DNA from: Melioribacter sp.
Lineage (GTDB): Bacteria; Bacteroidota; Ignavibacteria; Ignavibacteriales; Melioribacteraceae
Direction: 5' to 3'
DNA length: 35,423 nucleotides
Assembly (NCBI GenBank): GCA_012026935.1
Contig: VEPI01000145.1
Coordinates: 3,166-38,588 of the forward strand
A program made the translations under genes and the position numbers. Shown piece by piece: positions 16,581-22,007 of this stretch (positions within the stretch are counted from its first letter, which is position 1; every line of letters starts with the position of its first letter). Below the pieces are notes generated by a model, which was given only the letters and a program-made list of their open reading frames with translations, was not told where the DNA came from and did not search any database.

Positions 16581-17447
16581 TTACTCTTCGAGCAAACGAG
16601 AAATCTTTAATGATGAAATAAAACTACCAATAAAACCTAATGCGAGTCCGATTAACAAAATAATTAAATTCATTAATTTGATCGGATTAATAAAATTAAA
16701 ATTAATAAAAACCTTAGCCAATAAAATCGAAATAACGCTTAATAAAAGAATACAAATAAGAGATGATATAAAACCAATTATAATACCATTTAATATCAGT
16801 GGAATTTTCATCGTACTAATTTGAGCACCAACTAATTTCATTGTTAGATAATGATTTCTATTACCATACATCTGTATTTTATTATTACTGTAGACGAGAT
16901 AAGTTGCTAAAAGTATTAGTGTAATTGATAGGAAATAAATTACATATTCAAATGATTTTAATAAATTCAAAATCCGCAGAACTGTTTTGTAATCATAAAT
17001 AACTTCTGTAACACCCTTCATTTTTCTAATTTGATCAGTTAACTGTTCAATATTCGTTTCATTCAACGGTTGCGGTTTGAATTTAACAACAAAAGAATTC
17101 GGTAAGGGATTCTCATCAAGCACTGATCTAAAATCCTGACCGGTTTCTTTGACAAAATTTATTACTGCTTGATCCTTATTAACAAACGCAACTGATTGAA
17201 CTGATATGATTTTTTGAATTTCAACTTTTAAATCATCAATTTCATTTTGACTTAAATTTTCATTTAGATAAACATTTACCTCAATAGATTGTTTTATTTG
17301 ATCGGAGAACTTATTTGCGCTGAATACAAGAAAAATTGAAATAGTGCTTAAGATTACTGCAATAGTAGTTATAGTTATTGTAATTGCAGTAGCAAGAGAT
17401 GATTTTCTAAATATTCTAAATGCCTCTCGGAAATAAAATATTATCAT
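16581..17447 (-). CDS. ftsX: Cell division permease-like protein FtsX
   Basis: Four-helix membrane protein that with the ATPase FtsE activates septal peptidoglycan hydrolases. It has a cytoplasmic N-terminus (YFREAFRIFRKSSLAT), helix 1 at about 18-42, an extracytoplasmic loop at 45-160 containing the family's NPLPNSFVVKF motif, and three C-terminal helices (about 165-190, 215-245, 255-280) ending in a basic cytoplasmic tail. Its length of 288 is normal. It begins 5 bp after the upstream lipoprotein stop and is the last gene of the ybaB-recR run. ftsE is not adjacent, unlike the usual ftsEX pair. Confidence 0.88.
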   Translation of the reverse strand: MIIFYFREAFRIFRKSSLATAITITITTIAVILSTISIFLVFSANKFSDQIKQSIEVNVYLNENLSQNEIDDLKVEIQKIISVQSVAFVNKDQAVINFVKETGQDFRSVLDENPLPNSFVVKFKPQPLNETNIEQLTDQIRKMKGVTEVIYDYKTVLRILNLLKSFEYVIYFLSITLILLATYLVYSNNKIQMYGNRNHYLTMKLVGAQISTMKIPLILNGIIIGFISSLICILLLSVISILLAKVFINFNFINPIKLMNLIILLIGLALGFIGSFISSLKISRLLEE

Positions 17448-17452
17448 AAGTT

Positions 17453-17950
17453 TTAAAAATTTGATTCATCAGCCCAGCGGAGTATTTTCCATTTTTTATT
17501 TTCGTCTTTAGCGAGAGTTAAATTTACTCTACCGTCCACAAAAATAATATCCGTTGGGTTAAATGTTATTGTTAAATTAAAACTTCTTATTATTCTTGTT
17601 GAATCACCAGTCATTGAAACTATATTATTCCAAATTAGATCCAACCGTTGAGAATTTTGGAACAGACCATTCGTAACTTTCATTTCATCCTCTCGTCCCC
17701 AGGAAATATCAGCTCCAAGATCGTAATCACGGTACGTAAATGTAAAGTTTTTATCTAATACCTGTCTATAAATCAGCGTGTCTTTAAATGTATAGGCATA
17801 TTGAAAATTTTGGAATACTCCTCCAATATCAGTTTGGCCGCTTATTAATCCTTCATTGCTTCCCAGATTTTCATCAATGCTTGGAGCAAACGGATTGATG
17901 CAGCTGTTCGCCGCAAAAATTATTAAACAGTAAAAGAATATCCGTTTAAT
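17453..17950 (-). CDS. NTF2-like lipoprotein with probable ATT start codon
   Basis: An open frame of 165 codons with no ATG, GTG or TTG at its head. I place the start at ATT 17950. GGGAGG lies 4 bases upstream, encoded in the last codons of the preceding gene, and ATT overlaps that gene's TAA by one base (ATTAA). Reading ATT as Met gives a textbook lipoprotein signal: MKR, hydrophobic IFFYCLIIF, lipobox AANS-C17. The first internal ATG (17683) would remove the signal and half the fold. The mature part, with RQVLDKNFTF, SWGREDEM and KWKILRWADE, has the spacing of NTF2/SnoaL-like domains and parallels the upstream lipoprotein. Its role is unknown; position before ftsX suggests an envelope function. 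Confidence 0.75.
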   Translation of the reverse strand: MKRIFFYCLIIFAANSCINPFAPSIDENLGSNEGLISGQTDIGGVFQNFQYAYTFKDTLIYRQVLDKNFTFTYRDYDLGADISWGREDEMKVTNGLFQNSQRLDLIWNNIVSMTGDSTRIIRSFNLTITFNPTDIIFVDGRVNLTLAKDENKKWKILRWADESNF

Positions 17951-18518
17951 ACAACCTCCCTTTTAATTCACTCCAACTTGAATAATTATCTTTTCGTAAA
18001 TCATACCATTCGCCAATTACCCATTGATTTCTACTATCCAAATAAATTTTAAATTGAACGGAACCCTTGTACTCACCAGAAATTGTTTGATCATTTGCCA
18101 GAAAAGACAGTGAATAATCATACTGATAAACAGCACTATCTCCAAGTTGTGTATTGTTGCCGTTGCTTAATGTAAGAGTAATTGATTGACCGTCTTTTGA
18201 TCTTGCTTTCATATTTTTAAAATACTGTGTTTCTGAATCTATGTTCCAACCGATCAATCCCGGGTATTGCGATACAAGGCCTGCCGCTGCTATGAACTTA
18301 AATTTTCTATTTGAAAATGAAGGATCTACAAAACAAATTAAATAATTCTCTAAGATTTTATTCTGTATGGATGAAACAAAATTACCGAATAATATATCCG
18401 GCGTTGTTGCGGGTATATTACTATTTCCTACTGTATTGGGTTGTTCGGGATCTCTCGTTGTTAAAATATCACATGAGATAAGAGAGAACATTAAAAATGC
18501 AATTATTATCTTTTTCAT
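17946..18518 (-). CDS. NTF2-like lipoprotein, paralogue of the next gene
   Basis: A 190-residue exported lipoprotein: MKK, hydrophobic IIIAFLMFS, lipobox LIS-C16. A flexible linker rich in Thr, Pro and Asn (20-40) follows. The globular part has ILENYLICFVDPSFSNRKF near its start, a central acidic-amide loop, and QWVIGEWYDLRKD near the end. The order of features is the same as in the following lipoprotein, suggesting tandem duplication and divergence; the fold call is by pattern, not alignment. Its start overlaps the methyltransferase stop (ATGA), and its own end supplies the ribosome binding site and start overlap for the next gene. Ligand and partner are unknown. Confidence 0.75.
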   Translation of the reverse strand: MKKIIIAFLMFSLISCDILTTRDPEQPNTVGNSNIPATTPDILFGNFVSSIQNKILENYLICFVDPSFSNRKFKFIAAAGLVSQYPGLIGWNIDSETQYFKNMKARSKDGQSITLTLSNGNNTQLGDSAVYQYDYSLSFLANDQTISGEYKGSVQFKIYLDSRNQWVIGEWYDLRKDNYSSWSELKGRLY

Positions 18519-20348: not shown

Positions 20349-20999
20349 ATGATGATAACTAAATACGGATTAAGTACATTTCTATTTTGTGCCGGTTTTT
20401 CGGTTATTTTAATAATCTTTTCCTTGTTTATTCAAAATCACTGGATCAAATACCCGATCTTAATTCTTAGCATAACTTTCTTATTATTTTGTATTAATTT
20501 CTTCAGAGATCCGGAAAGGAATACACCTGACAAAAAAAATGTTATTGTATCACCGGCAGACGGCGAAATAGTAATTGTGAAAGATGTGATAGACAATGAA
20601 TTCTTAAAAGAAAAAGGTAAGCAGATTTCTATTTTTATGTCACCTCTTAATGTTCATGTAAATCGAATTCCAATAGACGGTAAAGTTGATTATTTTAATT
20701 ACTTAAAAGGTGAATACCTTGTAGCTTTTCATGAAAAAGCAGATAAACGTAATGAACGAACTGAAATTGGCATAACCAGTAAATATGGAAAAGTCTTTTT
20801 TACACAAGTTGCCGGATTTATTGCCCGCAGGATTGTATGTTCAATTCAAGTTGGAGATTCTGTGAAGATCGGAGAACGATTTGGTATGATAAAATTCGGC
20901 AGCCGTTCCGATGTGATCGTTCCTACTAATTGGAAATTGAAAGTAAAACTTGGTGATAAAGTAACTGCAGGTGAAACAATACTATTCGAGATCGAATAA
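20349..20999 (+). CDS. psd: Phosphatidylserine decarboxylase, short (Psd-related) type
   Basis: Pyruvoyl-dependent enzyme turning phosphatidylserine into phosphatidylethanolamine. Two N-terminal membrane helices (about 10-29, 34-51) lead into the catalytic domain. FRDPERNTP and VSPADGEIV (67-75) hold conserved Asp; MSPLNVHVNRIP (97-108) holds the His pair. FGSRSD (183-188) contains the Gly-Ser at 184-185 where self-cleavage makes the pyruvoyl group. At 216 residues it matches the short archaeal/Bacteroidota form. ATG 20349 is followed directly by a second ATG; no ribosome binding site is seen. The stop overlaps the next start as TAATG. Confidence 0.95.
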   Translation: MMITKYGLSTFLFCAGFSVILIIFSLFIQNHWIKYPILILSITFLLFCINFFRDPERNTPDKKNVIVSPADGEIVIVKDVIDNEFLKEKGKQISIFMSPLNVHVNRIPIDGKVDYFNYLKGEYLVAFHEKADKRNERTEIGITSKYGKVFFTQVAGFIARRIVCSIQVGDSVKIGERFGMIKFGSRSDVIVPTNWKLKVKLGDKVTAGETILFEIE

Positions 21000-21755: not shown

Positions 21756-22007
21756 GTGTTCAAAGCAACTGTCATTATTAAGAGAAGACCAAAGATTTTG
21801 GACCCGCAAGGGAAAGCAGTTGAACAAGGTGCGAAACTTCTTGGCTTTAATAATGTTAAACAAACAAGAATAGGCAAATACATAGAATTCTTTGTGGATA
21901 CAACTGATAAAAAAATAGCTGAGAATGAAGTTCGCGAATATTCCGAAAAACTCCTTTCTAACCCTATAATGGAAGATTTTGTTTATACTTTGGAAGAAGT
22001 TAAATGA
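21756..22007 (+). CDS. purS: Phosphoribosylformylglycinamidine synthase subunit PurS
   Basis: Small bridging subunit that joins PurQ and PurL in the FGAR amidotransferase complex. The 83-residue alpha/beta protein shows the family pattern VIIKRRPKILDPQGKAVEQG near the N-terminus and VRQTRIGK-type NVKQTRIGKYIEF in the middle. The start is GTG 21756, with CGGAG eight bases upstream. It overlaps purQ by four bases (ATGA). Confidence 0.95.
   Translation: MFKATVIIKRRPKILDPQGKAVEQGAKLLGFNNVKQTRIGKYIEFFVDTTDKKIAENEVREYSEKLLSNPIMEDFVYTLEEVK

Follow-up and report, generated by a model that had tools for sequence, protein, structure and literature searches.

The AUH start codon of infC is kept widely, and outside infC few conserved AUU starts are known to us. 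Binns and Masters are said to have described an AUU start for Escherichia coli pcnB in 2002. The pcnB start is cited in the available part of PMC13009471, which also describes Staphylococcus cvfC1, where AUU is combined with a strong Shine-Dalgarno (SD) sequence, the non-canonical start is conserved among Staphylococci and a reporter gives ~10% of AUG output in RPMI medium, as well as an AUA start in Staphylococcus ccpN. According to a portion of PMC5472188, the start codon of Streptomyces sigR is GTC in 32 of 34 species and GTT in the other 2, and IF3 represses the gene. In E. coli, an excess of IF3 reduces re-initiation (extract of PMC2268962), and gene pairs in which stop and start overlap as ATGA or TGATG are able to re-initiate (extract of PMC6728339).

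Here we describe ORF2, a putative lipoprotein gene in a 35,423-nt stretch of Melioribacter sp. DNA (class Ignavibacteria; assembly GCA_012026935.1, contig VEPI01000145.1, positions 3,166 to 38,588; hereafter the window, numbered from its first letter), whose start codon is probably an AUU lying on the stop codon of the preceding gene, ORF1. Like infC, which has such starts in the order of ORF2 as well, it appears to hold an AUH start over a wide phylogenetic distance; however infC is autoregulated by its own product, whereas ORF2 is predicted to encode a lipoprotein and starts on an upstream stop. With pcnB it would share being a chromosomal gene with an inefficient AUU start, and we know of no instance of the pcnB start overlapping a stop codon. 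The features in common with cvfC1 are AUU preceded by an SD sequence and conservation of the start, but cvfC1 is the first gene of its operon and so uncoupled from any upstream stop, and its start is conserved at the level of the genus rather than the order. In sigR a non-canonical start likewise occurs within a gene pair, but the codon is GUC, it belongs to the upstream gene of the pair and it was shown by experiment. As in the ATGA and TGATG pairs, stop and start overlap and coupling is expected; those pairs have canonical starts, however, and ATTAA is absent from the extract of PMC6728339. A search of titles and abstract openings, covering few subscription journals, returned no AUU start in Ignavibacteria and no ATTAA overlap, and the accessible part of PMC10783764, which names Ignavibacteria and start codons, includes the class where it tabulates anti-SD types and does not contain the term 'AUU'. 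ORF2 would join the known non-canonical starts as a new case, being the second gene of a pair, with its start on a stop, kept over an order. We know of no precedent for the order-wide persistence or for the proposed lock by stop overlap.

Organization of the locus

The minus strand of the window carries, in this order, recR, a methyltransferase gene, ORF1, ORF2 and ftsX, the first two identities being assigned by eye from the sequence. The features discussed below are:

17946..18518, minus strand: ORF1, upstream lipoprotein with the C-terminal end SWSELKGRLY, translated just ahead of ORF2
17955..17960, minus strand: Shine-Dalgarno sequence GGGAGG, within the ORF1 codons AAA GGG AGG and 4 nt 5' of ATT
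17948..17950, minus strand: probable AUU (ATT) start codon of ORF2, at signal-peptide distance from the lipobox and conserved in 73/137 orthologues
17946..17948, minus strand: ORF1 stop codon TAA, with T17948 common to ATT (ATTAA, 5-nt gene overlap)
17900..17950, minus strand: predicted lipoprotein signal peptide of ORF2 through lipobox Cys17, the ATT-to-Cys spacing being found in 73 loci
17453..17950, minus strand: ORF2, lipoprotein with a predicted NTF2-like fold, 165 codons plus stop
16581..17447, minus strand: ftsX, the next downstream gene (Pfam FtsX_ECD and FtsX above cut-off)

Two lipoprotein genes side by side (17453-18518) thus adjoin ftsX. On the minus strand the head of ORF2 reads AAG GGA GGT TGT ATT AAA CGG ATA TTC, following an in-frame stop. 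A first-pass annotation made from the letters of the window had claimed that this head contains no ATG, GTG or TTG, which is correct: the first such codon in the frame is ATG 17683, so that none lies ahead of the lipobox Cys. Translation beginning at ATT gives (M)KRIFFYCLIIFAANSC, in which residue 17 is Cys (codon 17902-17900), in agreement with the lipoprotein signal that had been proposed to follow ATT and to end at Cys 17, and GGGAGG was likewise rightly placed 4 nt ahead of ATT (17960-17955). The geometry of the overlap had been described less accurately. One base, T17948, is indeed shared by ATT and TAA, but ATT (17950-17948) precedes TAA (17948-17946) rather than following it, and the resulting ATTAA, in which ORF1 and ORF2 overlap by 5 nt, is not the TAATG geometry to which it had been likened. 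The usual coupling forms are found elsewhere in the window, as TAATG (1 nt) at 20999 and ATGA (4 nt) at 22004-22007. The pair has two marks of a coupled pair, an overlap of stop and start (ATTAA, 17950-17946) and an SD sequence (GGGAGG) inside the first gene. A gene caller restricted to ATG, GTG and TTG would pick 17683, as the annotation had warned, and in the window would drop 89 of the 165 ORF2 residues together with the signal peptide.

The ORF2 and ORF1 proteins

As expected of a lipoprotein, the lipobox Cys lies 12-20 residues from ATT (mode 16) in all 73 orthologous loci that have ATT at this place; G or S directly precedes the Cys in 71 of the 73, and K or R occurs at residues 3-6 in 44. 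In the ORF2 structure model (mean pLDDT 79, with the first 19 residues at low confidence) the mature protein adopts an NTF2-like fold, the best second-look match being 3rob_B (Z 16.9, rmsd 1.9 over 120 residues); the other matches include many domains of the ketosteroid isomerase or scytalone dehydratase-like kind. A shared fold of this kind, as predicted by the model, does not indicate a function. Searches of ORF1 and ORF2 against Pfam and NCBIfam (E up to 1 and 0.1) returned no matching model, and a PDB sequence search gave no meaningful match. ORF1 is perhaps a distant relative of ORF2, as hinted at by a weak profile match between the two (hhalign probability 23.5%, E 9e-4) and by second matches to the ORF2 search at 24-30% identity in 3 genomes.

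Conservation of the ATT codon

A protein search of 57 genomes, those of the window and its relatives, found ORF2 in 55, and a profile search found it in 236 of 245 genomes of the class; the gene is thus nearly universal in the class sample. In a phylum sample that includes class members the profile search found it in 61 of 148 genomes. Start regions were read in 154 loci, which after removal of 15 duplicates gave 139 distinct loci and after removal of 2 truncated ones 137; this sample covers 50 of the 55 protein-search genomes and 60 more, hand-picked from the 236 to spread over genera. ATT overlaps the ORF1 stop in the same geometry in 73 of these 137 orthologues, a count in which relatives are not independent of each other. 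The 73 comprise 31 of 40 loci in the window's own family (f1), 4 of 5 in f2, 9 of 13 in f3, 4 of 4 in f13 and 25 of 34 named loci without a family code, with none among the remaining 41 (L148 of family f15, which has ATT at -26, was left out of the ATT count because a TTG at -22 is common to it and its sister L153). One of the ATT loci lies on the finished chromosome of Melioribacter roseus (G018; 3,300,414 bp, according to the available part of PMC3534657). The ORF1 stop in the 73 loci is TAA (67) or TAG (6) and never TGA, and the last ORF1 codon is TAT (67) or AAT (6).

At codons -30 to -13 from the lipobox Cys, 61 of the 73 ATT loci have no ATG, GTG or TTG, and 60 have none anywhere between the in-frame stop and -13; this stop lies at most 6 codons upstream of ATT in 60 loci. 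The other 12 do have a canonical codon at -30 to -13, which in 8 of them is a GTG that arises, as judged by eye, from the Trp-Ser codons of ORF1. By a hand count of the coded genera, ATT without an alternative start extends over 24 in the order and a further 2 in f13. The comparison of orthologues that the annotation had called for revealed none, among those counted, that begins at the internal ATG without a signal peptide, and all carry the lipobox cysteine. Because ATT often touches a stop by chance (in 400 kb of M. roseus it does so in 67 of 299 frames of at least 200 codons), the bare overlap is no evidence; the part that is not chance is the lack of any other start combined with conservation in 73 of 137 orthologues.

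Codon choice at the end of ORF1

The T of ATT is the silent third base of the final ORF1 codon (Tyr or Asn). With shared ancestry ignored, this codon ends in T in 73 of 75 cases vs 446 of 592 for the same residues elsewhere in ORF1, and among the 14 ORF1 positions listed it ranks highest (0.97), with another close to it at 46/48 (0.96). The codons that make up the SD sequence in the ATT loci, compared likewise without regard to ancestry, are GGG in 39 of 72 cases vs 29 of 363 elsewhere in ORF1 and AGG in 32 of 50 vs 38 of 273. The corresponding figures for the non-ATT loci are 11/27 vs 20/184 for GGG and 3/11 vs 21/210 for AGG, and since the GGG excess is present there too, it is evidence for the SD sequence and not for AUU itself. 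All 73 loci have 4 nt or more of AAGGAGGT no further than 16 nt ahead of ATT, the minimal AAGG of the SD sequence being dictated by the conserved Lys-Gly of ORF1, and ATT in the ORF2 frame arises by itself from the terminal Tyr-stop of ORF1. UGA, which at this place would lay an out-of-frame UUG (TTG) over AUU, is the ORF1 stop in 0 of 73 ATT loci vs 94 of 299 long frames in M. roseus, again with shared ancestry ignored.

Distribution of start codons on the protein tree

In a quick tree of the mature protein all 73 ATT rows fall within a single clade of 93 (SH-aLRT 84, not starred) that consists of the window's order and family f13, while all 44 rows outside it have ATG, GTG or TTG at -30 to -13 and none of them is counted as ATT. 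At least 15 switches between ATT and not-ATT are required on this tree. Among the other 20 rows of the clade, ATT is replaced by ATA in L004, which is near the window's species, and by ATC in L048. A TTG that overlaps a TGA stop (TATTGA or AATTGA) is found in L022, L028, L093 and L107, all with the lipobox Cys; in L024 an ATG comes immediately after this TTG. L017, L018 and L094 start at ATG, each with the lipobox Cys, and L078 has TTGs only. ACT occupies the ATT position in L021, which has no obvious ORF2 start, and in L089, which also has GTG at -19; L016 has GTG at -19 and ATC at -16; and in L052, L062 and L084 the codon is ATT or ATC, the stop is displaced 3 nt downstream and there is also a TTG at -22. 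ORF1 is present without any ORF1/ORF2 overlap in L057, L064 and L072.

Because outgroup families also pair TTG with TGA (L116, L118, L127, L132 and L139), we infer that TTG preceded ATT, an order that the rooting of the tree does not establish. Only one G separates TATTGA from TATTAA, and its loss would convert a TTG start with a TGA stop into an ATT start with a TAA stop, the rest of ORF2 remaining in frame. One homologous place thus offers a natural series of ATT, ATA, ATC, TTG and ATG, and with a cultured host of finished genome and a clear reason for which AUG is barred, the question of selection versus lock-in for non-canonical starts becomes addressable.

A probable AUU start, proposed to be coupled and locked in

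The lack of another start, the conservation, the silent-site bias and the SD sequence point to an NTF2-fold lipoprotein whose translation is coupled to ORF1 and initiates at an AUU that is locked in since ATG would destroy the upstream UAA, a reading to which we assign a probability of roughly 0.87. AUU initiation coupled to ORF1, as the annotation had suggested, appears to fit best a frame that has no other start and an ATT kept by 73 of 137 orthologues; ORF2 has no canonical start at a plausible position, and the position of ATT is conserved, as would be expected of a gene that starts at AUU. A ribosome ending ORF1 at UAA, or its 30S subunit, would be held by GGGAGG in the last ORF1 codons and would use initiator tRNA to re-initiate, in preference to fresh 30S binding, at the AUU that begins two nucleotides before the ORF1 UAA, so that the product would be a lipoprotein beginning Met-Lys-Arg.

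The proposed lock would follow from the third base of AUU being the T of the ORF1 stop. The start must end in T because the stop begins on its third base, and an AUG there would abolish the stop, the end of ORF1 becoming TAT GAA by direct reading of the sequence. With AUU locked by the conserved Tyr-stop of ORF1, the arrangement may be neutral and regulation is not needed to account for it. In L057 an intact ORF1 with the same Tyr-stop is followed by a spacer and then by ORF2, which has an SD sequence and AUU but lacks any canonical start within range. Because SD and AUU are kept past the spacer, coupling is not obligatory in this genome, which would argue, for one genome only, against a pure overlap lock.

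Alternative readings

The weak start may itself have been selected, with IF3 repressing ORF2, so that the level of ORF2 would either stay at a small, constant proportion of that of ORF1 or vary with IF3, in the manner of infC and sigR. Such regulation, which we consider possible but doubtful, would add to AUU initiation and not replace it. In its more specific form, which we entertain just as tentatively, an inefficient, IF3-sensitive AUU on its partner's stop would act as a translational control element and set the ratio of the two lipoproteins and would have been kept up across at least 24 genera with occasional AUA/AUC swaps, even in L057. Regulation would agree with the persistence of AUU over 24 coded genera of the order, with the fact that two replacements are again AUH (ATA in L004 and ATC in L048) and with the retention of AUU and the SD sequence in L057 after the overlap was lost. 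It would agree also with infC: of 30 loci of the order (L095, from the window's genome, and L176-L204), 22 were readable with the motif used, and 18 of these 22 show no canonical start but have AUC or AUU 8-10 codons ahead of the first conserved Asn. Recovery of infC as non-canonical indicates that the approach detects a known AUH gene, making it a positive control, and since its AUH starts are kept here, IF3 discrimination is probably intact. However the overlap lock accounts for the persistence without regulation, and L017, L018, L022, L028 and L107 live with ATG or TTG instead.

The prfB frameshift has an SD-like stimulator at 3-nt spacing from the last sense codon, and GGGAGG lies at this same spacing, 3 nt ahead of the last sense codon of ORF1, as it should if ORF1 and ORF2 were fused through a +1 slippage at UAU-UAA. 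We consider such a fusion very improbable. Re-pairing of tRNA-Tyr or tRNA-Asn with AUU should be impossible, which sets the site apart from those of the prfB type, and the complete lipobox signal of ORF2 would come to sit inside the fusion; moreover relatives that start at ATG make ORF2 as a separate protein, and in L026, L075 and L080 an in-frame stop stands immediately ahead of ATT.

Slightly less probable still is a start further in, at ATG 17683 or at a TTG or GTG of the hydrophobic core, with the upstream part untranslated. This is the result to be expected from a caller limited to ATG, GTG and TTG, and some orthologues do have a TTG or ATG within the hydrophobic stretch. But invariant or nearly invariant residues among 24 diverse orthologues (C17, N19, P20, F21, P23, G44, F46, N48, D57, T58 and more) lie before 17683, as does the first helix of the predicted fold, and the ATG or TTG of relatives stands ahead of the whole signal peptide. 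A misread base or assembly error in a genome that truly has ATG would suit a draft assembly of 176 contigs, 44 named relatives that are MAGs and a reading decided by a single letter, but is the least probable of all, since the identical ATT occurs in 73 distinct loci including a finished chromosome, ATG here would delete the ORF1 stop, and an error cannot recur in 24 coded genera and finished M. roseus, which excludes sequencing error for the family.

Scan of the Melioribacter roseus genome

In 400 kb of M. roseus there are 128 same-strand gene pairs in which a frame stays open through the stop of the upstream gene, and, as judged from the listing, ORF2 alone among them has AUU without a usable canonical start; the least clear of the other ATT rows are + 33194, with a TTG further upstream, and - 330632, with an ATG 67 nt on. 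The AUU start thus looks like a property of the gene and not of the genome. A genome-wide AUU habit was considered and rejected. Among 328 coding-like frames in the 400 kb (12% of M. roseus), 29 have no canonical start in the first 25 codons, and most of these resemble leader sequence ahead of an ordinary start, a few others resembling frameshifts (mutL and a feoB-like frame), 7 of the 29 having been inspected at the nucleotide level and the rest judged by the listed sequence. The 25-codon filter misses ORF2 because of the TTGs in its hydrophobic core, and a sharper filter was used for the 128 pairs. The coding model trained on M. roseus passed only 10 frames of the window.

Two frames from this genome are of separate interest. 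The FeoB-like frame (G018 ~3088080, plus strand) has its first part out of frame and looks like a frameshift or a decayed gene. M. roseus mutL (G018 ~3163148, minus strand; within L156-L175) has no in-frame canonical start, and an out-of-frame ATG lies just upstream with an A7 run between, so that the frame may reflect an indel or transcriptional slippage, or the gene may start at ATC.
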